Positions 1,914 through 62,732 are shown, counted from the stretch's first letter. The stretch is 64,000 nt of DNA from Rubrobacter calidifluminis (GCF_028617075.1 NZ_JAQKGV010000009.1:1-64000); one strand, 5' to 3'. Numbers and translations: made by a program. The notes: a model not told the origin generated them from the letters alone.

Positions 1914-3044
1914 TCAGTTCGAGAAGCTGGCAAACCCCTGCTGAGGCTGTCCGCCTATGGAGGTGAAGTCACCCCCTGCGTAGAGCCTCCCGCGCAGGAA
2001 ATCCGGCGTGAGCTCCCACACTCCAGCATCGGCCTTCGGCGCCCAGCCAGGATCCACAGCCCCCCTTACGGGATCAATCGCGGCGAACTTGCGTCTCAGC
2101 AGACCTCCGAAATGATCGTAGTGCCCGCCAACGAAAACCTCGTCGTCGAAGACGGTCACGGCCTGACAGTCACCGTCGGCGTGCCGGCTCCACAGGACGG
2201 AACCGGTCGTCGTGTCGTACGCCGAGGCCGCACCGCCTCCGGTTCCTCCCTCGGCGGTGAAGACGTAGCCCCCGGATTCCACCAGATCTATGACGGGACG
2301 CATGATCGCTGGCCTCCAGGAGAGCAGAGTCCCCAGGGCGGGGCTCAGGGTGGCCAGGTACCTCCTCGACTGGCCGGAGACGGCAGTAAAATACCCCCCG
2401 GCGTAGATCCGGGTGCCGTCGATGGAGACGGTGAGCTTACGCACGGTGTTGTTGGCAGATGGGTGCCAGTTCGGGGCGAGGCTACCATCGATGCCGTCCA
2501 CCAGGGCGAGACGGGTGCGTGCCCGTCCGTCGACGTGCAGGAAAGCTCCTCCCAGATAGACCTCGTTCCCGGCCACGGCTATGGTGCGCACCGTGCCATC
2601 AGCTCCGGCTCTCCACCCTGCAACCGCCCTGCCGGTGGTCGGGTCGAGGGCGACGAGCCTCTCGTGCGGGACGCCCCCGACGCTCGTGAAGTCCCCTCCA
2701 GCGTAGATCTTCGTGCCGTCCGGGGAAGCGGCCAGCGTATAGACCGCCCCGTTCGCCCCTGGGTTCCAGCCCCTCAGCGCGCCTGTGGCGGCATCCATGG
2801 ATGCCAGTCGGGTGCGCGGGACTCCGTTCACGTGCCGGAAGTTGCCGGCGATGTAGATGCGATCCCCCCACAGCAGGATGGCTGAGACCCGACCGTCGGT
2901 CTGCACGGTGTCATACGGGCTACCGGCCGGGGCAGCCCGCGCGGGAACCTGCAGGATGAAAAGGAACGCCAGGGCCACCGCACAGCCTGCCAGGGAAACC
3001 GCCATACGATCCACATCATTCCGGCAACTCGCGCTGTCCCTCAC
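1914..3044 (-). CDS. secreted beta-propeller protein with GG-F repeats (delta-60/DUF5122-like)
   Basis: About 376 residues. A signal peptide (AVSLAGCAVALAFLFILQVPARA) precedes a repeat region with the recurring signature YxGGxF (IYIAGNFRHV, IYAGGDFTSV, VYLGGAFLHV, IYAGGYFTAV, VFVGGHYDHF, LYAGGDFTSI). Each unit is 40-50 residues and ends in a W-x-P loop, as in delta-60/DUF5122 and PQQ-like propellers. The GTG at 3044 starts 8 nt after the upstream stop and has GTGAGTGGGG just before it; ATG 3005 is an alternative that still leaves the signal peptide intact. A longer in-frame start at 3167 would run deep into the upstream gene and is unlikely. The function is unknown; an extracellular scaffold or ligand-binding role is inferred. 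Confidence 0.8.
   Translation of the reverse strand: MRDSASCRNDVDRMAVSLAGCAVALAFLFILQVPARAAPAGSPYDTVQTDGRVSAILLWGDRIYIAGNFRHVNGVPRTRLASMDAATGALRGWNPGANGAVYTLAASPDGTKIYAGGDFTSVGGVPHERLVALDPTTGRAVAGWRAGADGTVRTIAVAGNEVYLGGAFLHVDGRARTRLALVDGIDGSLAPNWHPSANNTVRKLTVSIDGTRIYAGGYFTAVSGQSRRYLATLSPALGTLLSWRPAIMRPVIDLVESGGYVFTAEGGTGGGAASAYDTTTGSVLWSRHADGDCQAVTVFDDEVFVGGHYDHFGGLLRRKFAAIDPVRGAVDPGWAPKADAGVWELTPDFLRGRLYAGGDFTSIGGQPQQGFASFSN
2631..2769. repeat. 139-bp block shared with the adjacent propeller gene (3784-3922)
   Basis: 2631-2769 matches 3784-3922 with two mismatches (gtCccctccA versus gtTccctccG). It encodes one propeller blade, including TLAASPDGTKIYAGG and VPHERLVALDPTTG. Neighbouring blades of the two proteins are far less alike. 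Confidence 0.85.
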
Positions 3045-3051
3045 ACCCCAC

Positions 3052-5280
3052 TCACCCCGAGAACTGCGCGAAACCCTGCTGAGAACGCCCGGAGACCTTA
3101 GTAAAATCCCCGCCCATGTAGAGGCGCTGGGTGCCGAACGCCGCCAGCGCCCACACACCGCGACCACCCTGGGTGTTGCCCCCCACGTCCGGCTGCCATC
3201 CGGGATCCAGACTGCCGGTCGCCGCGTCGAGCGCCGCAGCCTGACTCAGGCTCTGACCGCCCAACAGCTCGAAGTGCCCGCCCACATAGACTCTATCCCC
3301 CACCAGGGTTATGGCCTGGCAGTCTCCATCCGCCGCCACGCTCCAGAGAACCTGGCCGGACGTGCCGTACGCAGACACCGCTCCACCTCCCGGCCCACCC
3401 TGAGCAGCGAACACCCCGGTGCCGGAAACTGCCAGATCGAGCACCGGCCGTTTCGACGCCGGCTTCCAGAGGGGATCGAGCGCACCCGTCACCGGGTCGA
3501 CGGCGACCAGATACTTCCTCGTCTGCCCGGAAAATCCCGTAAAGTCGCCCCCGACATACAGCCGCCCGCCGTCAGGTGCGAGGGCCATGGTCCTCACGAT
3601 GGCACCGGCGGAAGGAGCCCAGAGGGGATCGAGCGCACCCGTCGCGGCATCCAGGAGCGCGAGGCGCGACCTGCTCTGACCGTTCACGTTGAGGAAATCA
3701 CCTCCGACATAGATCCTGTTGCCGGAGACCACGATTGAGCGCACTACACCGTCCGCCGAGGGATCCCATCCGGCGTCCGCAGCGCCGGTGGTCGGGTCGA
3801 GGGCGACGAGCCTCTCGTGCGGGACGCCCCCGACGCTCGTGAAGTTCCCTCCGGCGTAGATCTTCGTGCCGTCCGGGGAAGCGGCCAGCGTATAGACCGC
3901 CCCGTTCGCCCCTGGGTTCCAGTCGGGGTCGACCGTGCCCGTCGTGGCGTCGATGGCCGCGAGGCGGGACCTCTTGACGCCGCCCACGCTGGTAAGCCCG
4001 CCTCCGGCGTAGACGAGATCCCCGTCGCTGGAGGGGGCCAGCGCGATCACCGGCCCGTTGGCGTTCGGGTTCCAGCTCGTGATGGTACCGCTGGCGGCCC
4101 GCACGGCCGCCAGGCGGTTGCGCGAAGCGTGTCCGAAGACGGTGAAGTTGCCGCCCGCGTAGACGAGAGAGCCGTCGGGCGAGAGTGCTATCGCGTTCAC
4201 CGTCTTGTTCGCCCCAGGGTTCCAGGCCGTCGGGAGACCGTTGGAGGCATCTATCGCGGCGATCCTGGACCGGGCAGCACCGTTTACGCTGGTGAAATCA
4301 CCACCCGCGTAGACCAGAGACCCGTCGTTCGATACCGCCAGGGTGTTCACCGCGGCGTCCGCGCCGGGGTTCCAGCCGGGGTCAACCGATCCGTCCACCG
4401 GGCTGACCTCAGCAAGGTAGCCGCGCGATATCCCGCGTACGTTCGTGAACCTCCCCCCCGCGTACAGGCGAGAACCATCGGGTGAGATCGCCAGCGCGTA
4501 GACTGTGTTGTTGGCGTTGGCGCTCCAGGAACCATCTACCGCACCGGTGACGGGGTCGAGCGATGCCAGCCGGCCGCGTGCAACACCGTTCACCGAGGTG
4601 AACGCCCCGCCCACGTATACACGGCCGCCGTCGGGCGCGATGGCGATGGCGTCCACGGTCCCGTTGGTGGACGGGGTCCATGACTGGTCCACCTCCCCGG
4701 TGGCGGCGTCGAGCGCGACCAGGTTACTCCGGGCCTCGCCGTCCACCGTAGTGAAGTTCCCTCCGGCGTAGATCTTCGTGCCGTCCGGGGAAGCGGCCAG
4801 CGCGTCGACCGTCCCATCCAGCTTGGGGTTCCAGTCCGGGTCCGTGGTGCCATCCGAGAGGACGTGGGCGATCCCGGGCCTGAAGCTGCCCCCGACCCGC
4901 TGGAACTCTCCCCCGATATACCATCCGCCAGAACCATCGGGGGTCACGGCGAGCACCCGCCCGTTCACGTTCGGGAAAGCGCCGTCCAGCGTCCCACCGC
5001 CGGAGTACAGGGCGACGCCGAAACCCGTGTTCGGCCCGACCTGCCGGAAGTTGCCCCCGATATAGATCTCATCGCCGACACGCTCGATGGCCGAGACCCG
5101 CCCGTCCGTGACCCAGGTCGTGTCGGGGATGCTGAACGGTGTGGCGAACGCCGTGGCCTGCGGCAGGAAGATTCCGAAAGCACCAAGCAGGAACAGCAGG
5201 AGTAATCGGCGAACGGATGCCGGCCCCCGGCCACTGCGGCCCCGCTGCCCCGTACCCGGCATCCGGTATCCTGCTCTCAT
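3052..5280 (-). CDS. large secreted beta-propeller protein, about 13 GG-F blades
   Basis: A 742-residue protein with an Arg-rich start and a hydrophobic signal segment (RLLLLFLLGAFGIFLPQATAFA). The rest is an array of blades of about 42-50 residues with the pattern D-G-x-V-x-A-L-A-x-S-P-D-G, then YAGGxFT, then R-x-x-L-A-A-x-D-A-T-G. I count about 13 YxGGxF signatures, more than one propeller usually holds, so two stacked propellers are likely. Its ATG at 5280 overlaps the stop of the upstream gene (ATGA), which suggests coupled translation. It lies in a three-gene run of related propellers. Function unknown; surface matrix or adhesion is inference. Confidence 0.85.
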   Translation of the reverse strand: MRAGYRMPGTGQRGRSGRGPASVRRLLLLFLLGAFGIFLPQATAFATPFSIPDTTWVTDGRVSAIERVGDEIYIGGNFRQVGPNTGFGVALYSGGGTLDGAFPNVNGRVLAVTPDGSGGWYIGGEFQRVGGSFRPGIAHVLSDGTTDPDWNPKLDGTVDALAASPDGTKIYAGGNFTTVDGEARSNLVALDAATGEVDQSWTPSTNGTVDAIAIAPDGGRVYVGGAFTSVNGVARGRLASLDPVTGAVDGSWSANANNTVYALAISPDGSRLYAGGRFTNVRGISRGYLAEVSPVDGSVDPGWNPGADAAVNTLAVSNDGSLVYAGGDFTSVNGAARSRIAAIDASNGLPTAWNPGANKTVNAIALSPDGSLVYAGGNFTVFGHASRNRLAAVRAASGTITSWNPNANGPVIALAPSSDGDLVYAGGGLTSVGGVKRSRLAAIDATTGTVDPDWNPGANGAVYTLAASPDGTKIYAGGNFTSVGGVPHERLVALDPTTGAADAGWDPSADGVVRSIVVSGNRIYVGGDFLNVNGQSRSRLALLDAATGALDPLWAPSAGAIVRTMALAPDGGRLYVGGDFTGFSGQTRKYLVAVDPVTGALDPLWKPASKRPVLDLAVSGTGVFAAQGGPGGGAVSAYGTSGQVLWSVAADGDCQAITLVGDRVYVGGHFELLGGQSLSQAAALDAATGSLDPGWQPDVGGNTQGGRGVWALAAFGTQRLYMGGDFTKVSGRSQQGFAQFSG

Positions 5281-6374
5281 CGCATCGAAAACCGGGCGAA
5301 CCCGATCCTCTGCCGGTTGTTTATGGAGGTGAAGTCACCCCCCGCGTAGAGCCTCCCGCGCGAGGTGTCGGCCAGCAGTTCGTAGGGACCGAGCTTGTTG
5401 GCATCGGGCGCCCAGCCTCGGCTGAGGCTCCCGGATCTCGGCACTATCGCGAAAAATCCCCCGCGATGCCGGCCCCCGACCCTGTCGAAGTGTCCCCCGA
5501 AGTACACCAAGCCGCTCATCACCGCCACGGCCTGGGTGTTGCCGTTGGTATGCTGGCTCCAGACGATTCTCCCGGAGCCCGTGCTGTACGCAGAGGCGGC
5601 CCCACCCCTCAGTCCCCCCTGCGCGGCGTAGACGCGCTTTCTGGTCACCGCGAAGTCTATGACCGGCCGGCGGGGATTGGGACTCCAGGCGGCAACCCTG
5701 CCGGAGAGGGGGTGGAGGGCCTCAAGGTTGCGCCGGTACGGTCCTCTGATGGTGGAGAAAGCTCCCCCGACGTACAGACGAGATCCAACGACGTCGATCC
5801 TGCGCACGGAGCCTCTGACCCCCGCCTTCCAGTTCTCGACGAGGGCACCATCGGCGGCCCCGAGTAAGGCGATCGAGTAGCGGGTTTTGCCGTCGACCTT
5901 CCGGAAGTCTCCTCCCACGTAGATCCTCGTTCCGTAGACCTCGATGGCGCGCACCGGGGCGTCGGCGGAGGCGCGCCAGCCGCCAAGTGTTCTCCCCGTC
6001 GAGGCGTCCAGCGCTGCCAAATCATCGCGGTACGTCCCATCCGTCCGGGAGAAGTCTCCTCCCACGTAGATCCTCCTCCCGTCGGGAGAGGCCGCGAGGG
6101 CGTACACGGGCCCGTTGGTGGTCGGACTCCACGGTTTCAGCAAGCCCGTGCTCGCATCGAAGGCCGCCAGGTTCGACCTCCGGACCCCGCCGACCCTGCC
6201 AAAGCGTCCTCCCATGTAGATGGTGTTCCCGACCCTCAGGAAGCAGTAGACCGTGCCGTCGGTTTGAAAGGTGCGGTCCGGGACGTTGTTCAGAGCGGCC
6301 AGGGCGGGTGGCGCCGCGGCGAGCAGCCAGAGTACGGCACAGCACCACATCGAAATTATGATACGGAGTCTCAT
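5277..6374 (-). CDS. secreted beta-propeller protein with GG-F repeats
   Basis: About 365 residues. The start is chosen at ATG 6374 (ATG 6377 is adjacent), behind GGAGAGGAGCTGG. The signal peptide (IIISMWCCAVLWLLAAAPPALA) is followed by the blades IYMGGRFGRV, IYVGGDFSRT, IYVGGDFRKV, LYVGGAFSTI, VYFGGHFDRV and LYAGGDFTSI. All three tandem propeller proteins share a C-terminal order: a FAxxGGxxGGAASAY segment, then D-G-D/N-T-C-Q-A-V, then GGHFD, and a final GGDFTSI...QxGFAxFS. This indicates one family that arose by duplication. It is first of the coupled trio. Confidence 0.82.
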   Translation of the reverse strand: MRLRIIISMWCCAVLWLLAAAPPALAALNNVPDRTFQTDGTVYCFLRVGNTIYMGGRFGRVGGVRRSNLAAFDASTGLLKPWSPTTNGPVYALAASPDGRRIYVGGDFSRTDGTYRDDLAALDASTGRTLGGWRASADAPVRAIEVYGTRIYVGGDFRKVDGKTRYSIALLGAADGALVENWKAGVRGSVRRIDVVGSRLYVGGAFSTIRGPYRRNLEALHPLSGRVAAWSPNPRRPVIDFAVTRKRVYAAQGGLRGGAASAYSTGSGRIVWSQHTNGNTQAVAVMSGLVYFGGHFDRVGGRHRGGFFAIVPRSGSLSRGWAPDANKLGPYELLADTSRGRLYAGGDFTSINNRQRIGFARFSMR

Positions 6375-6552
6375 CATCCAGCTCCTCTCCACGAATCCAG
6401 GTGCCATGCGGTGCATACTTCCTCCACCCCCCGGACTCCCATCGGCAGGACCGCAGCCATGTAACGAGTCTGACAGATAGTGCAAGAGGTCGCATCCCCC
6501 AGATGGCACATTAAGGCAGCAACCCGGCAGGATTTTCGCGCGGTGTGTTTAA

Positions 6553-8106
6553 CTAGAACAGCCGCGATAGCCTGGACAGGATCCCCCAGGGTTTCTGAGG
6601 GTGCCTGCTGGGGGAAGCCGGGAGGCCGTTCTGCCTCAGCAGGGCCTCCTTCTCGGCGGTGGAGAGGTAGCGGCCGCCCTTCTCGGCCGGGGTGGCGTTG
6701 AAGCCGGTGAGAGACCTGCACCGCCCCTGCCACTTGAAGCGGCAGGCGCTTTCGCGGGACCCTTCGAACCAGAAGGCGTCCCCTACGCCACCATTGTTCA
6801 TCGCAGGGTTGTAAAGGCTCGGGACGCCTCGTATCGCGGAGCCGCTACCGTTCCAGAAGATGGCCGCATGGTCGGACGATCCTGGCGGCTCGCTCTGTAT
6901 GATCTTGTTTGCCTGCAGCCTGACGTCTCTGACGGTGTTATAGGCCTGCTCGTGGCTTCTCCTCCTCTCCTGCTGGACCACGCCGATGCCGGATGCATTC
7001 CAGGCCAGGACGTTGTCCTTCACCACCCCGTCGCGGGAACCGTTTATGGAGATGCCCGCACCGTTGTAGGAGTTGCCCTCCCCCCAGCCGTTCTCCCACA
7101 CCACGTTGTCGCGGACACTGAAGTTCTTTGTTATCTCGACCCGGATGCCGTTCCTGGGGTTGCCGTGGACCCTGTTGTGCGAGATCTCCACGTTCTTCTG
7201 CGCCGGGTTCACCACGTCCGTCCAGATGCCTATGTCCCTGTTGTCATAGACGTCGTTGCCGGAGATCACCGCATGGCGGGGCTGGGTGACCTTCATCCCC
7301 CCGGCTTCCCAGCGGGGATCGAAGCCCTCGACGTTGTTGCGGTACACCCTGTTGCCCACGATCTTTACGCTGGCATCATTGCTCCCCAGGCCCAGCTGCC
7401 CGCCGTCGTGCAGCTCGTTGTCGCGGGCGACGAGGCCGTCGCCGAGGGTGAGGGAGAGGTCTCTGGCGTGTGCCCAGGAGAGGTCGTCGTTCTCCACGGT
7501 CCAGTCCGAATAACCGCCGTTCCAGAGGCCGTCCCCCGCGGCATCCTTCATGGTTATCCCCTTCACGGTGACGCCCGGCGAGGCGCCCACTATCCAGCTC
7601 TTCCTCACGGTCACCTCGACGGCATGCCCGGCGGGATCGTTGGCGAGGATGACGTGCCGGCCGGCGTCGAGGGCGAACTGCCCGGGCCCGGGGTTCGAGG
7701 CGACCTGCTCGAGCGGCCTCCCGTTGATGAAGACCTGCTCCGGCCAGCGGCACTCCCGGCTCGATCCCTCGCAGCGATAGCGGTGATCGACGGGGAAGCG
7801 CGGCACGGAATCACGACTCACCCACACAGAACCCTCCCTGCGCCAGCGCCGCCACACATCGGAGCCCCGGATCTCACCCTTCCCTCCGCCATCGAGCGTG
7901 AGCGGCTTGTTCACGACGACGGTCTCGCGGTAGATGCAGTTCCCGGCGAGCCTGACGGTGCTGCCGGGGCGCGCCGCGTCTATCTTCTTCTGCAGGGAGT
8001 CATGGCAGGTGGGCCGGATGTTCGCCGCCATCCCGGTCTTCGCACAGGCCTGTAGCAGGAGTATGAGAGCGCATAAGCTCGCCAACACGATCCCGACCGA
8101 CGACAT
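6553..8106 (-). CDS. secreted or lipid-anchored parallel beta-helix repeat protein
   Basis: About 517 residues from ATG 8106; a GTG at 8202, 6 nt after the upstream stop, is an alternative with a longer Arg-rich leader. The leader SSVGIVLASLCALILLLQAC has a possible but non-ideal lipobox (LQAC), so lipid anchoring is only possible. The body has Asn-rich beta-helix turns (ENDDLSWAH, DNELHDGG, GNRVYRNN, GNDVYDNR, HNRVHGNP, DNVVWENG, DNVLAWNA). It shares the N-cap [17 protein letters not shown] and a near-identical DNA block with the gene at 194-1744. The context suggests action on the extracellular polysaccharide, but no lyase or epimerase site can be identified. Confidence 0.83.
   Translation of the reverse strand: MSSVGIVLASLCALILLLQACAKTGMAANIRPTCHDSLQKKIDAARPGSTVRLAGNCIYRETVVVNKPLTLDGGGKGEIRGSDVWRRWRREGSVWVSRDSVPRFPVDHRYRCEGSSRECRWPEQVFINGRPLEQVASNPGPGQFALDAGRHVILANDPAGHAVEVTVRKSWIVGASPGVTVKGITMKDAAGDGLWNGGYSDWTVENDDLSWAHARDLSLTLGDGLVARDNELHDGGQLGLGSNDASVKIVGNRVYRNNVEGFDPRWEAGGMKVTQPRHAVISGNDVYDNRDIGIWTDVVNPAQKNVEISHNRVHGNPRNGIRVEITKNFSVRDNVVWENGWGEGNSYNGAGISINGSRDGVVKDNVLAWNASGIGVVQQERRRSHEQAYNTVRDVRLQANKIIQSEPPGSSDHAAIFWNGSGSAIRGVPSLYNPAMNNGGVGDAFWFEGSRESACRFKWQGRCRSLTGFNATPAEKGGRYLSTAEKEALLRQNGLPASPSRHPQKPWGILSRLSRLF
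7603..7753. repeat. second copy of the 151-bp beta-helix block (partner 1196-1346)
   Basis: See the partner block: 149 of 151 positions are identical, at a distance of about 6.4 kb and in the same orientation. Confidence 0.85.
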
Positions 8107-17415: not shown

Positions 17416-19974
17416 CTACTGCACGTAGACCGTGGAGACCGCGGTGTTGGAGCTGAGCACGCCGTCGTTGACCGAGAAGTAAACCGTACGGGTCCCGGCC
17501 GTGGGGTTAGCCGCGGTGTCGTTGTAGGTCACCGTCCTCAGAACCTTCTCGTAGTCAGCCTTGGAAGCAGAGCCGTTCAGATGAAGGACACCGTTCTGAG
17601 CATCGTAGGTGGCGGTTATCCCCGTGCCCGCCGTGCTGGCGGAGAGGCTCTCCGACGCTCCGTCTGGCATGCTCGTCAGCATGACCGTGGCGGACTTGAT
17701 GTTGACGTCGTCGGCGTCGGCGACCACCAGGTTGTCGGGATCGACGATGGAGACGGGGCCGCCGCCGGGATTGAAGCTGGTTGAGTAGCCCGTATCACCA
17801 CCGGTGTTGTAGAGGACGCTGGATGGGACCACCTGTTCCGGCTGACCGGGGTAGGACCACTGCAGCTTGGCCACCGCACCACCGCCGTCCTCGTAGTAGT
17901 CCATCTGGATGTCGTAGCGCTGCCCGGCCTGCAGCGTGATCGTCCCAGAGTCGTCAGTCGGCGCGTGATCCCCCCAGTCGTCGATCAACTCCTGGCCATT
18001 CACGAACAACCTCACCCCATCGTCAGAAGTGGTGGTGAAGGTGTAGTCCCCGCTCACCGGCGCCTCTATCTGTCCTGTCCAGCGAGCGCTGAAGGTGTCG
18101 GGGCCTATGGCTGGATCGGGGGAGCCGTTGCCCCAGTCGAAGTTCACCGTCGGGTCCACCCGGCTCACCTGCGTCCCGGTGAAGTCCTGGTTGTCGTAGT
18201 AGGTGGCATCGAGCCCGCCGTTGTCACCGGTGTAGAGCAGGTCGTTGGAGGGCACGACCTGTTGGGACTGGCCGGGATAGGACCACTGCAGCTTGGCCAC
18301 CGCACCACCGCCGTCCTCGTAGTAGTCCATCTGGATGTCGTAGCGCTGCCCGGCCTGCAGCGTGATCGTCCCAGAGTCGTCAGTCGGCGCGTGATCCCCC
18401 CAGTCGTCGATTATCTTCTGCCCGCCGATGTAGAGGCGCACACCGTCATCAGAGGTGGTGGTGAAGGTGTAGTCCCCGCTCACCGGCGCCTCTATCTGTC
18501 CTGTCCAGCGAGCGCTGAAGGTGTCGGGGCCTATGGCTGGATCGGGGGAGCCGTTGCCCCAGTCGAAGTTCACCGTCGGGTCCACCCGGCTCACCTGCGT
18601 CCCGGTGAAGTCCTGGTTGTCGTAGTAGGTGGCGTTGAGACCACCACGCTGGAGGCCGTTTCTATGCTCGAACCCGTTCAAATCTATCGTGGGGGTGGCG
18701 TAGTCGACCGCGTGGTAAGTCGGGTCGTAGGTGAAACGTGCCAGGTTGTACTGCGGCACCCCGGAGACCCCGATGAACCCCCCGCCCACGTAGAGGTAGT
18801 TGCTCGTGGTGGTCAGCGTCCAGCCACCGTTGTAGTTGGGCCGCGTCTTCTCGTCGAGGGTGGGGAGCCAGTTGCAGTCTATGGTGCCGGTGTCGGGGTT
18901 GAGCGCGGCCAGCCCCTTGAGATAACTCCCGCCGCAGACCTGCTGGTCGAGCGGGTTGATACCGAAGTGTCCCCCGATGATGAGCCTTGAACCATCGGGA
19001 GAGAAGGCGACGCTCTGCACGTTTCCGACCGTGTTGTAGCGCCATACCTCGTCTCCCGAATTGCCGTTGTCCAGCCGGAAGGCGGCGGCGTAGTTCGGCT
19101 TGTCCCCGAATCCAACGTAGAGACGGCTGCTGGTGACGGTCATGTCCCAGGCGATCATCGGGTTCTCGATCGTGCCGGCAGGTATGGCCCAGGGATCGAC
19201 GTTGCCGGTGGCCGTGTCGAAACGCGCCACGCTCTGCCTGGGTGCCGTGGTGCGATCGGAACCCACCACCGAGGTGAAGCCACCGGCCGCGAAGATCGTG
19301 TTGCCGTCGGTGGAGAACTTCAGGTCGTGCACCGTACCCCCCTTGGCCTTCGGCTTCCAGGAAGTGTCGAGCGCACCCGAGGGGAGCTTGAAGGCCGCCA
19401 GGTTCTGGCGGCTCACGCCGTTTACCGAGCTGAAGGTGCCGCCGATGTACAGCTCGGTGTCGCTGGGAAGAACAGCGTAGACGGTAGAGTTGCTGGTGCC
19501 GACCGTGGCGGAGAGCGGACTCAAGGCCCCGCTGCTCTCGTCGACAGCCGCCAGGTTCTGCCTCGGCTGGCCGTTCACCGAGGTGAACCTCCCGCCTATG
19601 TAGACCTGCCCGTTCCTGACGGCGAGGGCGCGTACGACCGGTGAGAAGCTCCCGTCGCTCGCCACGTTGGGCCTCCAAGTGGATACCGGCGTCCCCGTCG
19701 CCACGTTTATGGCGGCCAGGTTGTTGACCGCGAGGGTCTGCCCACCCTGCCCCGGAGGCTTCTGGCGCAGCTGGGTGAACCTTCCACCGATGTAGAGCGT
19801 CTTGCCGTCCTCCGAGAGCGCCGAGGCGTAGACGACCCCGTTGGTCATCCACACACCCGGGTCCGGTGTAGTCTTGAGCCCGATGGTGGCGTGGGCCGGC
19901 GCGGCGCCTACCGCCGAAACCACCGATACGACCACCACGGCCAAGAGCGCCAACAGGGATGATCTTCGTCGCAC
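17416..19974 (-). CDS. secreted propeller protein with two PA14 domains and a C-terminal cadherin-like domain
   Basis: About 852 residues. GTG 19974 is chosen because AAGGAGAAGGAC precedes it and the protein then opens with RRRSSLLALLAVVVVSVVSAVGAAPAHA, a clean signal peptide. Residues about 35-440 form a beta-propeller (LYIGGRFTQL, VYIGGRFTSV, LYIGGTFSSV, IFAAGGFTSV, LIIGGHFGIN, LYVGGGFIGV). Two PA14 domains follow at about 447-565 and 589-707, each with GDYTFTTTSDDGVRL and DDWGDHAP, features of carbohydrate-binding PA14 modules. The last 120 residues resemble a cadherin-type repeat (TVTYNDTAANPTAGTRTVYFSVND). It is probably a cell-surface or matrix protein that binds the polysaccharide; this is inference. 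Confidence 0.88.
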   Translation of the reverse strand: MRRRSSLLALLAVVVVSVVSAVGAAPAHATIGLKTTPDPGVWMTNGVVYASALSEDGKTLYIGGRFTQLRQKPPGQGGQTLAVNNLAAINVATGTPVSTWRPNVASDGSFSPVVRALAVRNGQVYIGGRFTSVNGQPRQNLAAVDESSGALSPLSATVGTSNSTVYAVLPSDTELYIGGTFSSVNGVSRQNLAAFKLPSGALDTSWKPKAKGGTVHDLKFSTDGNTIFAAGGFTSVVGSDRTTAPRQSVARFDTATGNVDPWAIPAGTIENPMIAWDMTVTSSRLYVGFGDKPNYAAAFRLDNGNSGDEVWRYNTVGNVQSVAFSPDGSRLIIGGHFGINPLDQQVCGGSYLKGLAALNPDTGTIDCNWLPTLDEKTRPNYNGGWTLTTTSNYLYVGGGFIGVSGVPQYNLARFTYDPTYHAVDYATPTIDLNGFEHRNGLQRGGLNATYYDNQDFTGTQVSRVDPTVNFDWGNGSPDPAIGPDTFSARWTGQIEAPVSGDYTFTTTSDDGVRLYIGGQKIIDDWGDHAPTDDSGTITLQAGQRYDIQMDYYEDGGGAVAKLQWSYPGQSQQVVPSNDLLYTGDNGGLDATYYDNQDFTGTQVSRVDPTVNFDWGNGSPDPAIGPDTFSARWTGQIEAPVSGDYTFTTTSDDGVRLFVNGQELIDDWGDHAPTDDSGTITLQAGQRYDIQMDYYEDGGGAVAKLQWSYPGQPEQVVPSSVLYNTGGDTGYSTSFNPGGGPVSIVDPDNLVVADADDVNIKSATVMLTSMPDGASESLSASTAGTGITATYDAQNGVLHLNGSASKADYEKVLRTVTYNDTAANPTAGTRTVYFSVNDGVLSSNTAVSTVYVQ
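17852..18207. repeat. PA14-coding direct repeat, copy A (partner 18278-18633)
   Basis: A 356-bp direct repeat at an offset of 426 bp (142 codons, so in frame). The two copies agree base for base except for a central window of about 50 bp near 17985-18035, where they differ strongly. Confidence 0.9.
18278..18633. repeat. PA14-coding direct repeat, copy B (partner 17852-18207)
   Basis: The second copy. Its diverged window encodes QKIIDDW preceded by LYIGG, while copy A has QELIDDW preceded by LFVNG. That is the loop just before the shared DDWGDHAP. Confidence 0.9.
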
Positions 19975-20009
19975 GTCCTTCTCCTTGCGTGTATACCTGC
20001 TACGTCTAC

Positions 20010-20028
20010 GGCTCTCTCCGCGAGAGCC
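20010..20028 (-). promoter_or_regulatory. hairpin in the leader of the PA14/propeller gene
   Basis: GGCTCTC/GAGAGCC, a 7-bp stem with a 5-nt loop, lies 36-54 bp upstream of the GTG start. The gap between the response regulator stop (20189) and this gene is 214 bp and should hold its promoter. No convincing -35/-10 pair could be picked. Confidence 0.35.
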
Positions 20029-20188
20029 CGGGCAGGACCCCAGCCCGGCCACGCAAAGAACGATAGCTACGTCACGGAGCACGGCACATCCACCACATGG
20101 CCTATTTCTCCGCCCCATCCACCACAGAGAACAGAGACCAGCGGTAATTAATAGAAGGAGGCCCGGCCGGGAACCAGAGAGGAGCCGT

Positions 20189-56514: not shown

Positions 56515-56790
56515 TCCCGGTGCATGCGATGACGGCGTCTTCGGGATACCGTCCGACTGGCCTGGGGCACTGGTTGGATCTGGCTTGCTCTCAGAAGCGC
56601 TCTGCTGCGAGCCGCAGGCCGCTAAGGCAAGCACGGACCATCAGACCGACCGCCGTCTTTCTCAATGCGCATCCACCACCCTGGAGACTTCCATGATCAC
56701 CTCATTACAATTCGATCGCTATCGTACCTGCCAGGCCGACGAGAACGAGCTGGCAGGCTGCGATAGTCGGATCTTCGCCAGATGCGTGTA
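56515..56790 (-). pseudogene. decayed second copy of a lipoprotein start plus the end of its upstream gene
   Basis: 56735-56790 region matches the stretch around 57580-57635: 48 of 56 bases agree from cgatcgctat to gatagtc/aatagtc. Downstream on the minus strand the frame reads SVLALAACGSQQSASESKPD, a lipobox-like segment similar to LAGCGQQERASS of the intact lipoprotein. Stops (two TGA) lie between the possible ATG at 56694 and that segment, and the C-terminal half is missing. So the junction between the membrane-protein gene and the lipoprotein gene was duplicated here and then decayed. This accounts for the 290-bp gap. Confidence 0.65.
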
Positions 56791-57571: not shown

Positions 57572-58141
57572 TCATAATCCGATCGCTATTGTACCCGCCA
57601 GGCCGATAAGGAAGAGCTGGCAGGCGGCAATAGTCTGTGCTGTCGGCATCCGCAAGACGAATCTGTCTTCCCAATCTTCTCCTAGCAAGCCGGTGGTGGC
57701 GCCCAGGATAAGCATCCAAACGGCTCCGCCCCTCACTAAGGAGTAGGCACCGTAGATGGCGGCACCCAAGGCTGGATCTGCAAAAAGGAAAGCCCCAAGC
57801 GGGATGATGTACCAGAGCCAGAAACCGATTCGGCTGGTTGTCCCGACTCCCAAAGACACCCCATTGAGCAATGCCCAGGTAAGAGCACCTTTGTTGAGCC
57901 AGCGTTGCGGTGTCTCGCGGTCGAGTTGCGGCAGGCGAACCCTTATACCCAGCATCTCAAGGCTGCCAATAAAAACAGCGGCTAGGGCGAGCAGGCTGGC
58001 CACGGCTACCCGGACTTCGAAGGGCAGCAGGATCCCCGCCGCACCGAGCGCCGCACCACTCAGCATGCCAGCAAAGGACGCAGACACCGAAAAGAGGAGT
58101 GCCTTGGCGATCCAGCTTCGTCCTGCCTGATTCCGCTCCAC
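57572..58141 (-). CDS. polytopic membrane protein in the MauE/MauD cluster
   Basis: 189 residues with five to six hydrophobic segments. Two similar stretches, FAGMLSGAALGAAGILLP and ALLNGVSLGVGTTSRIGFW, suggest an internal repeat as in CcdA/DsbD-like or MauF-like transporters, but no Cys pair is present. I cannot name the family. It lies 36 bp after the small two-helix gene and 15 bp before the lipoprotein gene. Confidence 0.65.
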   Translation of the reverse strand: MERNQAGRSWIAKALLFSVSASFAGMLSGAALGAAGILLPFEVRVAVASLLALAAVFIGSLEMLGIRVRLPQLDRETPQRWLNKGALTWALLNGVSLGVGTTSRIGFWLWYIIPLGAFLFADPALGAAIYGAYSLVRGGAVWMLILGATTGLLGEDWEDRFVLRMPTAQTIAACQLFLIGLAGTIAIGL

Positions 58142-58177
58142 GGCGGAACTCGCGATCCCGTAGATCGCGTTGGGGCC

Positions 58178-58381
58178 TCAGGGCAAGGTTTGCTGAAGAA
58201 TACCCACGCAGGCGGCGGAGAACAAGACTAGCCAGAATATCCACGCTCCCGGTTGCGAGCCTCGCGCAAGCAGACCTGCCGTCGCACCGACAAGCACTAA
58301 TGCCCAAAACCACAGAGGAATCATAGACGTCAGTCGTACGTTTCTTAACCTTTCAAGAAGCAAAACCATCTCCTCTGCCAT
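58178..58381 (-). CDS. small two-helix membrane protein
   Basis: 67 residues with two hydrophobic segments (IPLWFWALVLVGATAGLLA and AWIFWLVLFSAACVGIL). ATG 58381 has AAGGTC directly ahead. It lies between the Cys-rich protein gene (27 bp gap) and the polytopic membrane protein (36 bp gap), all on the same strand. No family recognised. Confidence 0.5.
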   Translation of the reverse strand: MAEEMVLLLERLRNVRLTSMIPLWFWALVLVGATAGLLARGSQPGAWIFWLVLFSAACVGILQQTLP

Positions 58382-58408
58382 GACCTTGTATATTGACGTC
58401 TGCTTACT

Positions 58409-58837
58409 TTAATTGCGCGACCCCGACGGGCGTGTTCCTGCTGGCACCAAGCTTTCTCTTGCTTTGGCCCTGGCCGCGGGAGTTTGCGGACAATTCAGTC
58501 GCGTGGACATTATGCAAGGGTTCCCGTTCGGCAGGTTCCAGTCGCAGCACTTGTAAATGCATCCACCTGCGTATGTTTGCCAGCATTGATAGTAAGTGCC
58601 GCCATGGTAACAACTGTAGCGTTTGGTGCATCCGCCGCCACATCCGCAACACCTGGAGCATGATGGATACCCATAACACGGATAAGGTGCCGCCTGCGCA
58701 ACCTCGGGCAGCATCAGCGAGGCAACGCTCGCGAACAGCGCACCACCTGCAAGGCGAAGGAAGCGGCTGCGGCCGAAACGTATGGCTTCCTGCTCTTCCT
58801 CGTCGCCTTCGATCAGTCGCTTGAGTTCCTCGGGCAT
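58409..58837 (-). CDS. very cysteine-rich exported protein (MADH light-chain-like architecture)
   Basis: 142 residues from ATG 58837 with GGAGGTAACCC ahead. A long charged n-region (MPEELKRLIEGDEEEQEAI) leads to GRSRFLRLAGGALFASVASLMLPEVAQA, a signal similar to twin-arginine leaders but with R-S-R instead of RR. The mature part packs 13 Cys into about 70 residues (YPSCSRCCGCGGGC, YSCYHGG, QCWQTYAGGC, YKCCDW) with just two Trp. Many disulfides, two Trp and MauD/MauE next door recall the methylamine dehydrogenase light chain, whose TTQ cofactor forms from two Trp. No heavy chain gene is present. The function is unknown. Confidence 0.82.
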   Translation of the reverse strand: MPEELKRLIEGDEEEQEAIRFGRSRFLRLAGGALFASVASLMLPEVAQAAPYPCYGYPSCSRCCGCGGGCTKRYSCYHGGTYYQCWQTYAGGCIYKCCDWNLPNGNPCIMSTRLNCPQTPAARAKARESLVPAGTRPSGSRN

Positions 58838-58840
58838 GGG

Positions 58841-59440
58841 TTACCTCCTCGAGATAGAGGGAAAGATCCGGCTGACGTTGGGTTCTTGCTCCTGCACGTC
58901 TTTTGCCAGAGCTACGAGGTCCGCTTTGCTATACAGATACGATTTCCCGACTACCCTCCCTTCATTGACCGCGACGGCGAAAGGTGTGCTCTGGATCTTT
59001 AGCGTCTCTGCAAGCCGGGTCGCTTCAGGGGCGCGCAGAACTCTTGTACCTGAGGGGAGAAGATCGACGAGAGCGTCCACGAGCGCCGCCCTCGAACCGG
59101 GCACCAAAGCCACGATCGGCAGCTCCGGGCGGCTCCTGCCGAGTTCGGCTGCCAGCTCCCGGCACGGCGTGCAGGTGGCGGACATCAGTACCAGAAAACC
59201 CTTCTGGCGCCGCAGCTCTGGCAGGATCGAGGCTACCTCATCGGGAACATCGCTGCCTACTTCCGGTCCGTCGTCGGCGAGGGAGAAGCCGTCCTCCGCC
59301 TGCTGCGGGACTGCATGGCCGACCCTGGAGAGTCGCAGCGTCAGCAGTGAGATCTGGCGTATCACCAGCATCAGGACCAGCGTCAGCGCCCCCAGCCAGA
59401 TACAGGCGGCGGCGAGCGCAGCGATCTCAAGTCCACTCAT
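58841..59440 (-). CDS. MauD/TlpA-like thioredoxin-fold protein
   Basis: 199 residues from ATG 59440 (GGGAGGAGATAC ahead), overlapping the MauE-like stop (ATGA). One N-terminal helix (IAALAAACIWLGALTLVLMLVI) anchors it, with the domain outside the cell. The thioredoxin-fold part has the redox motif SATCTPCREL and the cis-Pro region QSTPFAVAV. MauD proteins help form disulfides in the methylamine dehydrogenase light chain; here the client is probably the Cys-rich protein 3 nt downstream. Confidence 0.88.
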   Translation of the reverse strand: MSGLEIAALAAACIWLGALTLVLMLVIRQISLLTLRLSRVGHAVPQQAEDGFSLADDGPEVGSDVPDEVASILPELRRQKGFLVLMSATCTPCRELAAELGRSRPELPIVALVPGSRAALVDALVDLLPSGTRVLRAPEATRLAETLKIQSTPFAVAVNEGRVVGKSYLYSKADLVALAKDVQEQEPNVSRIFPSISRR

Positions 59441-60054
59441 GTATCTCCTCCCGTTTCCGGCACGTTGGGCTCCAGCACCTCTCGGTTCCACTTCCATAGA
59501 TCCGGCACACGGCCCAGGAGAACGACTGTTCCGAGGATAGCTGCCGCCACCACGAGCTCGAGAACCGGAGCCGCTTCCGGTCCGCGGTAGGCGTCCACGG
59601 GTGCTGCTGTGGCAGCCAGTGTCGAGGCGAGCAAGGCGAGCAGACCCGTGCGGAGCAGGGTCCAGCGGGATAGCATCGAGTCTGTATCCCCGAAGCAGAA
59701 GCAGGCGAAGCGCTCCCCAGACCACAGGCTGCGGGCTATCAGGAGAGCGAAGACCCACAGCAGCGCGGCGACGACCGCGAGGGTGAAATGCGACGCGGGT
59801 CCACCCAGCGCCAGGGCCAACGCCAGGACCAGTTCCCCTGCGCCGAGGGCGAACCCCAGAGAAGGGCGGACCCGTCGGGCCACCTTGAAGTCCACCATGG
59901 CCATCGCGGCCAGGGCCGGTCGCCGGAGCTTCACCAGGCCGCTCCACACGAAGATGAGGGAGAGGAAAAGCGTTGCAATACTGTAACCGGGCTCTTCGCC
60001 CAGCGCACGTACGCCCTCCCCGATCAGCGAAACAGCTGCACCGAACCCACCCAT
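59437..60054 (-). CDS. MauE/DoxX-like redox membrane protein
   Basis: 205 residues with about five helices. YSIATLFLSLIFVWSGLVKLRRP matches the first helix of MauE/DoxX-type proteins, and SGERFACFCFGD carries the C-x-C motif near the membrane surface seen in MauE. MauE is needed with MauD to oxidise and fold the methylamine dehydrogenase light chain. It is first in the compact unit MauE - MauD - Cys-rich protein. A 97-bp gap upstream holds direct repeats. Confidence 0.85.
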   Translation of the reverse strand: MGGFGAAVSLIGEGVRALGEEPGYSIATLFLSLIFVWSGLVKLRRPALAAMAMVDFKVARRVRPSLGFALGAGELVLALALALGGPASHFTLAVVAALLWVFALLIARSLWSGERFACFCFGDTDSMLSRWTLLRTGLLALLASTLAATAAPVDAYRGPEAAPVLELVVAAAILGTVVLLGRVPDLWKWNREVLEPNVPETGGDT

Positions 60055-60096
60055 GAGAAGAAGCCTAAGGTGAACCTGCGGTCACCACCAGACCCC

Positions 60097-60127
60097 AAAG
60101 TACCCAAAATCGAGTACGAAGGTACCC
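60097..60127. promoter_or_regulatory. pair of direct repeats upstream of the MauE-like gene
   Basis: AAAGTACCC (60097-60105) and AAGGTACCC (60119-60127) are 22 bp apart, two helical turns. They lie between the LuxR-type regulator stop and the MauE-like start and could be its operator. Confidence 0.35.
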
Positions 60128-60151
60128 TATTCCGGGAGTGCGGCCGACGAG

Positions 60152-60385
60152 CTATTCGAGAGGCTGCATGATACCCCAGTAGTAGAGGGCAGCCTGGGTG
60201 TGGTTGCATAGGCCGAGCTTGCGGTACACGCTCCGGAGGCGGTTCTTGTCCGTCTGCTCCGAGAGACAGAGCTTGCGGCTTATGCGCCGGTTGCTCCACC
60301 CGTAAGCCGCGTAGCGCAGCACCGCCCGCTCAGACCGGGTGAGCGCCGTGCAAAGCCGTCCACTTAATGGGGAGGTTCGATCCAT
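60152..60385 (-). CDS. small LuxR-type HTH regulator
   Basis: 77 residues from ATG 60385; an ATG at 60490 would overlap the next gene and neither start has a good ribosome-binding site. LTRSERAVLRYAAYGWSNRRISRKLCLSEQTDKNRLRSVYRKLGL is a complete LuxR/GerE helix-turn-helix. There is no receiver or ligand domain, as in GerE-like single-domain regulators. It lies directly upstream of the MauE/MauD unit on the same strand, so it is the natural candidate regulator. Confidence 0.75.
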   Translation of the reverse strand: MDRTSPLSGRLCTALTRSERAVLRYAAYGWSNRRISRKLCLSEQTDKNRLRSVYRKLGLCNHTQAALYYWGIMQPLE

Positions 60386-60458
60386 GAACCAGCGACCGGC
60401 CGTCGCCCGCCTGCTGCCGATTTTCTGTGAAAGCGAATATGCGGCTAAGCTGTCGTTC

Positions 60459-60833
60459 TCAGTAACTCGGGGGACGCCAATTCGCTGCATCTATCGTGCA
60501 GTAAGATTCCAAACGGTTGCCCAAACTTTCCAGAAGAGGTATCCCTCGGAAGGGATTTGAGAATACTGTATGTGACCAATTGTTCACCGGTTCTCCCTTG
60601 TGATGACCGACTTTCCAAACCCATTGGCCCCGGGAAGAGGTGCCTTCTTCCTGTTCGCTTAGGTTCTCGTTGGTTCGTGCGGAAGGATCTAAACACTCTG
60701 CAACACCGCGAAGATTCCAAATAGTTCCCAGTGCGTCTTGGTAACCATGGGCATATCCTAGGGCATACCCACCTACGACTACCAGGGCCACTGGCAATGC
60801 GATTTTGCTGCTTATGGCCAACTTTCCGTCCAT
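60459..60833 (-). CDS. small membrane-anchored protein of unknown function
   Basis: 124 residues from ATG 60833, preceded by AGGAGGTTGGCA. One N-terminal helix (ISSKIALPVALVVVGGYALGYAHGYQDAL) could be an uncleaved signal anchor. The rest is hydrophilic with Trp and Asn-rich parts and two Cys (ECLDPS and ESYCTID). No family recognised. It lies 120 bp after the ABC transporter operon on the same strand and 73 bp before the LuxR-type gene. Confidence 0.6.
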   Translation of the reverse strand: MDGKLAISSKIALPVALVVVGGYALGYAHGYQDALGTIWNLRGVAECLDPSARTNENLSEQEEGTSSRGQWVWKVGHHKGEPVNNWSHTVFSNPFRGIPLLESLGNRLESYCTIDAANWRPPSY

Positions 60834-60953: not shown

Positions 60954-61790
60954 CTAAAGATCTACCCTCCGCAACTGCCAGGCTCCAATCGCGAGTACAA
61001 GAGCCAAGGTTGCAGCAATTACTACGAATGAGACAGACCAGGGAGTGGCAGAAACCCCCCGGTAGTTACCAAAGTGGATTACATAGGTGAGCTGATACTC
61101 GGGGTCTAACGTTCCGACACCTCTGCGAAAGACGAGGGGCGCTACCAACGGCGTTCCCGCAAATGCCCATGCCAGTCCTGCTGCCAAAGGTGTGATCAGG
61201 TGTGGGTAGAGCGTGGAAACAACAACCACCACAGCCCCTATTGCCCAGAGCACAACCGCTGTGTATAGCACGACGAGCAGTAAGAACAGTGGCGCAGGCA
61301 GAGTTCCAAATCCAGGATGAATGGCACCCTCATTTCCCCAAGGAATCCGCGATGCTGGACTCCATTGCAAGGAGAGGGGCAGCCTGAAGGCACCCGCCAG
61401 AAGCGCTGAAAAAAAGGCTAGAACGGAGAAGAGAAGTGCGAGCGGTCCCAGGGCGCACACCTTTGCTACCCACCAGCCTGCTCGCGAGCGGGAGCGCAGT
61501 AACGTCATCGCAGCAGCCCCCGACGAACGATCACGCACGTAGAGATCACCGTTAACGAGCACGAAGCCCAGTACAAAGGCGAAGGCGATTGCGGAAGGAT
61601 CGGTCATCATAGTCAAGGGTGCGTCCCAGAAGTTGGCGTGGCGAAGTGTCTGGGTGGTGTAGTCGTACGATGCATCTTCCGCTCCGAGCCAACCAGCTAC
61701 GAAGAACACCGGCGGCACTACCAACCATCGCCAGCTTCCCACAGCTTGTAAGGCATTGAAGGCTACAAGTCGCAGTACTCCGGTTGTCAT
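60954..61790 (-). CDS. ABC-2 type transporter permease
   Basis: 278 residues. ATG 61790 shares its A with the stop of the ATPase gene (TGATG), with GGAAGGGAAG ahead. About six hydrophobic segments; WRWLVVPPVFFVAGWLGAEDA and FAFVLGFVLVNGDLYVRDRSSGAA recur almost unchanged in the permease at 62746, so the two are paralogues. Such ABC-2 proteins export peptides, lipids or drugs. Its ATPase appears frameshifted. Confidence 0.82.
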   Translation of the reverse strand: MTTGVLRLVAFNALQAVGSWRWLVVPPVFFVAGWLGAEDASYDYTTQTLRHANFWDAPLTMMTDPSAIAFAFVLGFVLVNGDLYVRDRSSGAAAMTLLRSRSRAGWWVAKVCALGPLALLFSVLAFFSALLAGAFRLPLSLQWSPASRIPWGNEGAIHPGFGTLPAPLFLLLVVLYTAVVLWAIGAVVVVVSTLYPHLITPLAAGLAWAFAGTPLVAPLVFRRGVGTLDPEYQLTYVIHFGNYRGVSATPWSVSFVVIAATLALVLAIGAWQLRRVDL

Positions 61791-62732
61791 CACTTCCCTT
61801 CCACCAACTCCATGAACTCCTGTTCTAACGAGCGGCGGACCTTCCTGACCTCCTCGATATTCACCCCGGCTTCGACAAGCTCGCGCACCACCTGAGGAGT
61901 AGACTTCTCCGTAGCGAACTCTACCGAAAGCGGCGAATCCTCCACAGACTCGATGTGTACGGCCATCTCTCGAGCCCACTCTCGGAGTGGATCGAGATCT
62001 GTCTCCGAAGAGATGGTGAGCCTGAGCGCCAACTTCGTCACGCGTTTCTGATCCAGATGTTTTCTCACCTGGCCCTCCCGCACCAGGAGTACCCGGTCGC
62101 AGACCTGCTCGACCTCGGTAAGGAGGTGGCTGGCCAGAAAGATCGCCACCCCACTCCCGGCGAGACGCCGGATCAGAGAGCGCAGCTCGATAATCCCCTG
62201 CGGGTCGAGCCCGTTCGTGGGCTCGTCGAGGAGCAGAAGCTTTGGTTTTTCCATCAAAGCTTGCGCGAGCCCGAGCCGCTGGCGCATTCCTAGAGAGTAT
62301 GCTCTTACCGGGCCGGTGGTCTGAGGGATCGAGTCCCACGACCCTGAGCGTCTCTTCTATGTCTGCTTCCGTGGCTACCTTGCGAATGTCCGCCAGGAGC
62401 TTGAGGTTCTTTTTGCCAGAGAGATAGGGGATGAAGTTCAGCGCTTCGGTAACAAGGCCCACTCCCTCCGGGCTCAGAGCCTCTTTCGCAAGGTTCTTGC
62501 CGAGCACTTCGATCTCACCCTCCGTTGGACGGCTGAGGCCCGAAAGGAGTTTGATCAGGGTCGTCTTTCCCGCCCCGTTGGGTCCGATAAAGCCCACTAC
62601 CTCTCCCGGATATAACTCGAGATCCACACCAGAAAGTGCTCGGTGCCTACCGTACTTCTTCCCAACCCCGCGCAGCCTGACAGTGGGTGTTTCCGGGTGG
62701 TTTTCATCCTGTCTTCTACTTTGCGAACTCAT
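61790..62732 (-). pseudogene. ABC transporter ATP-binding protein with a single-base frameshift
   Basis: ATG 62732 (GAGGAGATTCCGC ahead). The first 140 or so codons read TVRLRGVGKKYGRHRALSGVDL, Walker A GFIGPNGAGKTTLIKLLSGL and up to VVGLDPSDHRPGK. The signature, Walker B and the rest (AYSLGMRQRLGLAQAL, LLLLDEPTNGLDPQG, FLASHLLTEVEQ) lie in another frame, ending at 61790. One extra G in the ccGGGccgg run at 62310-62312 explains this: without it the protein reads through as DHRPVRAYSLGMRQ. It is either a real mutation that inactivates the transporter or a sequencing error in a G/C run. Confidence 0.88.

Follow-up and report, generated by a model that had tools for sequence, protein, structure and literature searches.

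We suggest that a minus-strand gene cassette of Rubrobacter calidifluminis is an oxidative-folding cassette for one exported Cys-rich protein, and that the MauF of this cassette is a selenoprotein. The explanation as a whole is probable. The selenoprotein assignment, which comes from sequence comparison, is very likely, and the folding mechanism, drawn by analogy with the methylamine utilization (mau) operon, is only marginally less probable than the whole. The window, that is, the entire 64,000-nucleotide stretch analysed here (GCF_028617075.1, NZ_JAQKGV010000009.1:1-64000), corresponds to contig C9 of the host draft genome (G000; 3.09 Mb, 96% complete). Replication-origin genes (dnaA, dnaN, recF, gyrB and gyrA) and sdh genes, named by eye, are found in the same window.

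Organization and conservation of the cassette

The features of the locus are collected in Table 1. The MauE gene shares 4 nt with that of MauD, and the Cys-rich gene follows MauD after a gap of 3 nt, all on the minus strand, in agreement with the close packing described in an earlier sequence-only reading of this DNA. Against canonical MauE, the window MauE scored 5.7e-13 by hhalign, and it is 47-55% identical to its counterparts in the cassettes of three other genomes. MauD alone had no Pfam match, and its hhalign match was obtained as a profile against Paracoccus-type MauD. Its CxxC motif reads ATCTPCRE, and its identity to the cassette orthologues is 42-49%. A second MauE is encoded in the same genome at L034 (G000:C12:78000-92000; features 1804-2055, 5742-6083 and 6621-7229), beside a short or broken MauD, a MacB/FtsX-type ABC transporter and two further Tat-type Cys-rich proteins, which have 8 and 10 Cys and lack Trp.

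Table 1. Features of the MauE-MauD-MauF cassette and its borders, in window coordinates
Feature	Position	Strand	Basis
MauE-like (DoxX superfamily) membrane protein, 205 aa, ACFCFG motif	59437..60054	-	Pfam MauE 1.1e-15
MauD-like membrane-anchored thioredoxin-fold protein, 199 aa, CxxC	58841..59440	-	hhalign to canonical MauD 2.5e-12
Predicted exported Cys-rich client, 142 aa, Tat-like signal (R-S-R)	58409..58837	-	without Pfam/NCBIfam family; orthologues in four other genomes
Predicted MauF/DsbD-type membrane selenoprotein, TGA read through	57572..58381	-	read-through translation; profile comparison; TGA in 25/25 loci
In-frame TGA, proposed selenocysteine U68, context LQQTLP-U-GPNAIYGIASS	58178..58180	-	
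bSECIS-like hairpin, 7-bp stem, loop UACGG, start 8 nt past TGA	58151..58169	-	
Lipoprotein, 252 aa	56798..57556	-	37% identity to G064 cassette copy
Decayed second copy, MauF gene 3' end	56698..56768	-	56709-56768 vs 57576-57635: 85% self-match
Remnant LuxR-type HTH ORF, directly upstream of cassette	60152..60490	-	GerE 1.8e-11

Profile searches of the whole G000 draft genome found neither the heavy chain (PF06433) nor the light chain (PF02975) of methylamine dehydrogenase (MADH), nor MauG (PF03150); of seven further cassette genomes tested for MauG, six were likewise without a match. Thus, the lack of mauB and mauG first noticed within the window extends to the genome. These absences, together with the conservation of the cassette, support the earlier proposal of a MauE-MauD unit dedicated to an exported Cys-rich protein and lacking a methylamine dehydrogenase.

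The cassette is known in five genomes: that of the window, G008, a Thermomicrobiales MAG, G647 (from the phylum of that MAG) and an Anaerolineaceae MAG. Its gene order is maintained across two phyla, and its five MauF copies group in a single clade (support 100/100). At L043 of the Thermomicrobiales MAG the order reads MauE, MauD, Cys-rich protein, small TM ORF and membrane protein, while in G008, which belongs to the same family as the host, the cassette genes lie at two contig ends within a polysaccharide gene cluster. In the Anaerolineaceae MAG (L045/L104) the cassette is flanked by a Tn3-type transposase/resolvase and an IS21-type pair (L104 5753-17379, G064), a setting that suggests horizontal movement of the cassette between phyla. 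In two of the five cassettes, the gene immediately ahead of MauE encodes a Tat-signal protein (L104 9970-10620; L112 10342-10878). The lipoprotein next to MauF has its homologue in the G064 cassette, and similar ones were seen by eye in G647 and beside a relic in G036 (L112, L085); AlphaFold models of two lipoprotein sequences had a pLDDT of 46 and no usable fold.

Two genomes of the same genus lack the cassette. In one of them, with a flank 97% identical, the segment equivalent to window 57647-60170 is gone, and of the MauF gene only the final 75 nt are left; the second has the same junction to within a few bases. With the 189-aa membrane ORF of the window as query, a search of 396 Actinomycetota genomes revealed a wider family in 27 of them, and its loci are often near MauD, MauE and another Tat-type Cys-rich protein.

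The sequence-only reading also placed a LuxR-type regulator ahead of the cassette. A LuxR-type HTH ORF is indeed there, but it retains no more than the HTH end of a gene whose copies in the close relatives G001 and G002 are longer, and it does not accompany the cassette in other genomes. This HTH end and its adjoining sequence exist in two copies about 5 kb apart (window 60072-60349 and G000:C9:64996-65261; 87% identical), evidence of local rearrangement around the cassette. Farther upstream, the frame of an ABC ATPase is broken (window 60954-62732, 61790-62287), with the N- and C-terminal parts in different frames, through a frameshift or a sequencing error. Elsewhere in the window, tandem genes with repeated 'SPDG..IYAGG.FTSV.G' propeller-like motifs adjoin polysaccharide synthesis genes (1914-6509, 17416-20118).

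The Cys-rich client

After its signal region the client has 13 Cys and two Trp, just as the sequence-only reading had counted, and both the Cys pattern and the two Trp are kept in the four homologues from other genomes. The two outcomes named in that reading as refuting it, mauB or mauG beyond the window and a Cys and Trp pattern not shared by homologues, are both contradicted by the data. The motifs CW and CCDW are present in all five cassette clients. Its signal, GRSRFLR, has R-S-R rather than the strict twin arginine expected of an MADH light chain; RR does occur in the wider family and in one of the three homologues that were aligned first (G063). No family in Pfam or NCBIfam and no solved structure (PDB sequence search) matched the client, and AlphaFold models of three sequences gave a pLDDT of 50 with no usable fold. 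Our best guess is that it has a redox or structural function outside the cytoplasm or at the cell surface. Among the other clients, a 10-Cys type is found in several genomes and lies next to groEL in some of those read. A Cys-rich client at L098 (2837-4447) carries six fused LGFP repeats, a hint that some clients may act in the cell envelope.

A secreted disulfide protein of antimicrobial or toxin-like type, accompanied by genes for its own folding and export, is an unlikely identity for the client. Such a protein would be small, Cys-rich and exported, as the client appears to be, and ABC-2 type transporter genes are indeed located upstream in the window, while the paralogous Cys-rich locus in G000 is accompanied by the MacB-type transporter. 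However, the ABC genes are outside the cassette in other genomes, the ATPase frame in the window is broken, no immunity gene is evident, and in several genomes wider-family members stand next to groEL, which is not typical of a bacteriocin locus.

Slightly less likely again is an orphan quinone-cofactor protein, which the sequence-only reading had listed among its possibilities; this would be a TTQ-like protein equivalent to a reduced MADH light chain. The PF02975 search of the client, run as a check, returned no match, hhalign against the MADH light chain gave nothing, and a shuffle-calibrated profile alignment to MADH light chains gave a z of -0.3, so that the protein in the MauA position would be a client of another kind or one that has diverged very far. 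It is this position, after mauE and mauD, and the invariance of the two Trp across five homologues that speak for such a protein. Yet the second Trp comes directly after CC and lies off the MADH Trp108 position (in an alignment that is not significant), the region of Trp108 is missing, and MauG is absent as described above. With Pfam, NCBIfam, the PDB search, hhalign and the shuffle test all negative, the assignment of the client as an MADH light chain finds no support. A by-eye alignment of CW...CCDW to the W57...CC motif of MADH was dropped after the profile tests failed.

Related cassettes lend this alternative some further support, since the clients of G644 (shuffle z 13.5) and G019 (shuffle z 7.6) are MADH-light-chain-like. 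The best PDB matches of the G019 client were the small subunits of aromatic amine dehydrogenase and MADH (E 0.03-1), and G019 also encodes a propeller matching the MADH heavy chain. These genes belong to a compact cluster (L053 2335-6465) comprising MauD, the MADH-light-chain-like protein, Sec-MauF, an MADH-heavy-chain-like propeller lipoprotein and MauE, located between serine recombinase and IS21-type genes. This cluster is possibly a Sec-dependent amine dehydrogenase. For the window client, we retain the reading of an exported Cys-rich protein served by the folding cassette.

A TGA codon at the SPC position of MauF

What the sequence-only reading took for two further small membrane proteins (58178-58381 and 57572-58141) is better read as one gene with an in-frame TGA. 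The small TM ORF runs up to this codon, and the same frame continues past it into the 189-aa ORF. The small TM ORF alone had no signal against MauF, because the TGA splits the gene. Many wider-family loci have the same arrangement: in frame upstream they read ...STLFSP, stop, GLSMVETI..., where canonical MauF has ...STWSPCGYSS.... At the SPC position all 25 loci, each from a different genome, have TGA as the stop, never TAA or TAG. Since the long ORFs of the window use mixed stops (20 TGA, 17 TAG and 1 TAA), TGA throughout the 25 loci is unexpected for chance stops.

Read-through profiles of three groups, with U treated as Cys, matched the MauF of Paracoccus and Methylobacterium with E-values of 3e-18, 4e-23 and 3.7e-6, and in all three the U aligned on the SPC Cys. 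The direct match of the window group to canonical MauF is moderate (the 3.7e-6), and that of the intermediate group is the 3e-18. By hhalign, the wider group matched MauF at 9.8e-20 and the window group matched the wider (intermediate) group at 1.7e-22. The family member in G019 matched Pfam DsbD_2 at 7.6e-11. The flanks of the TGA are conserved, reading LQQTLP or AQQTLP, U and GPNAxYGI in four of the five cassette members, with GVNAVFGI in G647. In one close wider-family pair the frame upstream of the TGA has 10 synonymous versus 1 nonsynonymous codon changes; selection thus acts on this frame, at least in that pair. Because the Cys of the SPC motif is replaced by TGA/Sec in the window protein, we do not class it as MauF proper but as its Sec variant.

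In one family of genomes the post-Sec part of MauF is fused to MauE in a single ORF of 374-380 aa (L094 6936-8060, L102 6662-7804). A weak match in G212 proved to be an ABC permease. No relatives of MauF(Sec) were found among plasmid records, and no NCBIfam model (June 2026) fits the read-through proteins.

Selenocysteine machinery and the hairpin past the UGA

Contig C16 of the host carries in a row selA (75877-77190), selB (77231-79030) and a tRNA-Sec with anticodon TCA (79068-79158), and Rubrobacter xylanophilus is a known Sec user. A tRNA-Sec above 60 bits is present in 21 of the 25 TGA genomes. Of the four without a clear one, two (G184 and G051) encode selA and selB, a third (G223) carries partial copies where a contig ends, and G274, a genome 73% complete, yielded no Sec machinery. 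The one actinobacterial homologue seen with Cys (SPCGLSM) is in G091, whose genome is 99% complete; there we found no selA match and no selB above the cut-off, and the tRNA-Sec match of 49.7 bits is near the level of ordinary tRNAs. That the Sec or Cys form appears to track the presence or absence of the Sec machinery is, in our view, the strongest single argument for a selenoprotein.

In the window group the hairpin reads CGCGAUC-UACGG-GAUCGCG, with a G in the apical loop. Its folding z is -3.5, none of 200 shuffles was as stable, and 91% of cells are paired in five orthologues versus 17-54% for slid partners. One compensatory pair, GC-to-AU in G064, makes for thin covariation. The hairpin of the wider group, GAUGGU-GGAG-ACCAUC, is paired at 89% versus 19-66% for slid partners, and the mean folding z right past the UGA is -1.2 versus -0.4 to +0.1 farther downstream. 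No Rfam family matched the hairpin. Since it lies inside coding sequence, some of the pairing comes from protein constraint; the bSECIS is supported but unproven.

That the TGA is a real stop, with MauF split into two membrane proteins or decaying, is very improbable: standard gene callers would give two ORFs, a GTG lies 36 nt past the TGA and the cassette was lost in two same-genus genomes, but the TGA is at the same residue in all 25 loci, GPNAIYGIASS or GLSMVETI is conserved right past it though no start codon is at the TGA, a clear ribosome site precedes MauD, the Cys-rich gene and the lipoprotein but not the GTG, the Cys form is one uninterrupted ORF (L100), and the host has the Sec machinery.

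Proposed mechanism and its implications

We propose that the selenoprotein MauF works in a cassette that would correspond to the maturation part of the mau operon (MauE, MauD and MauF) minus the dehydrogenase. SelA, SelB and tRNA-Sec of the host would insert Sec at the UGA, with the hairpin just after it. The Cys-rich client would be exported, and the CxxC of MauD, presumably outside the membrane, would make or repair its disulfides. To supply MauD, MauE and MauF(Sec) would carry redox equivalents through the membrane; the selenol may make MauF faster or less prone to irreversible oxidation. Because MauF has a single conserved Cys/Sec, a mechanism with an internal Cys pair, as in CcdA, would not apply; a mixed selenide-sulfide of MauF with MauD is the simplest idea.

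With less confidence, we lean towards a broader proposal, that of a new selenoprotein family. Its members would be transmembrane thiol carriers of the MauF/CcdA type, with selenocysteine as the only conserved redox residue, and would form the core of a widespread Sec-dependent MauE-MauD-MauF pathway in Actinomycetota and Chloroflexota-type bacteria. This pathway would fold exported Cys-rich proteins of several classes that look unrelated; the light chain of amine dehydrogenase would be just one of these. If this is true, ordinary gene calling splits or truncates MauF(Sec) everywhere, and a class of selenoproteins has been overlooked. Sec in place of the one conserved Cys of MauF would mean that this residue is catalytic, and the role of MauF in amine-dehydrogenase maturation could be tested directly. 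The mau maturation genes would be a folding module separate from amine oxidation, and a set of exported Cys-rich proteins could be named as its likely clients.

Comparison with known systems

The read-through protein is homologous over its whole length to the MauF/DsbD-CcdA family, with Sec at the SPC Cys. CcdA has two conserved Cys. The window protein differs from this family in its apparent Sec-encoding TGA, in its single conserved Cys/Sec, and in the LPUG of the cassette group in place of SPCG.

Known selenoproteins that handle disulfides (thiol:disulfide interchange protein, DsbA-like and DsbG-like proteins) likewise have Sec, but in a thioredoxin fold with UxxC, whereas the window protein has a single Sec in a transmembrane domain and no UxxC. 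We compared published selenoprotein lists (Genome Biol 2005, Genome Biol 2006, PLoS Genet 2008, ISME J 2016 and Molecules 2020). In these prokaryotic lists, the listed 'thiol:disulfide interchange protein' is a thioredoxin-type domain (cd02953) with UxxC wherever a domain is given, and a MauF/CcdA transmembrane selenoprotein is not among the named entries, though a prior mention may stand among the 'other hypothetical selenoproteins' or in the supplementary tables (PMC1088965, PMC1794560, PMC2398784, PMC5029168, PMC7435645). No relevant paper on a CcdA-type or MauE-linked selenoprotein emerged from a literature search.

Clusters for aromatic amine dehydrogenase (aau) share the order MauE, MauD and light chain, but they have heavy chain and cytochrome genes, and the window cassette has neither. 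In comparison with the mau operon (mauFBEDA... of Paracoccus denitrificans and Methylobacterium), the cassette is without mauB, mauG, amicyanin, mauJ and napGH-like genes, its client is not recognisably MauA, and its MauF is downstream, with Sec for Cys. What it shares with that operon are homologues of MauE, MauD and MauF and the order of MauE, MauD and client, which is that of mauE-mauD-mauA.
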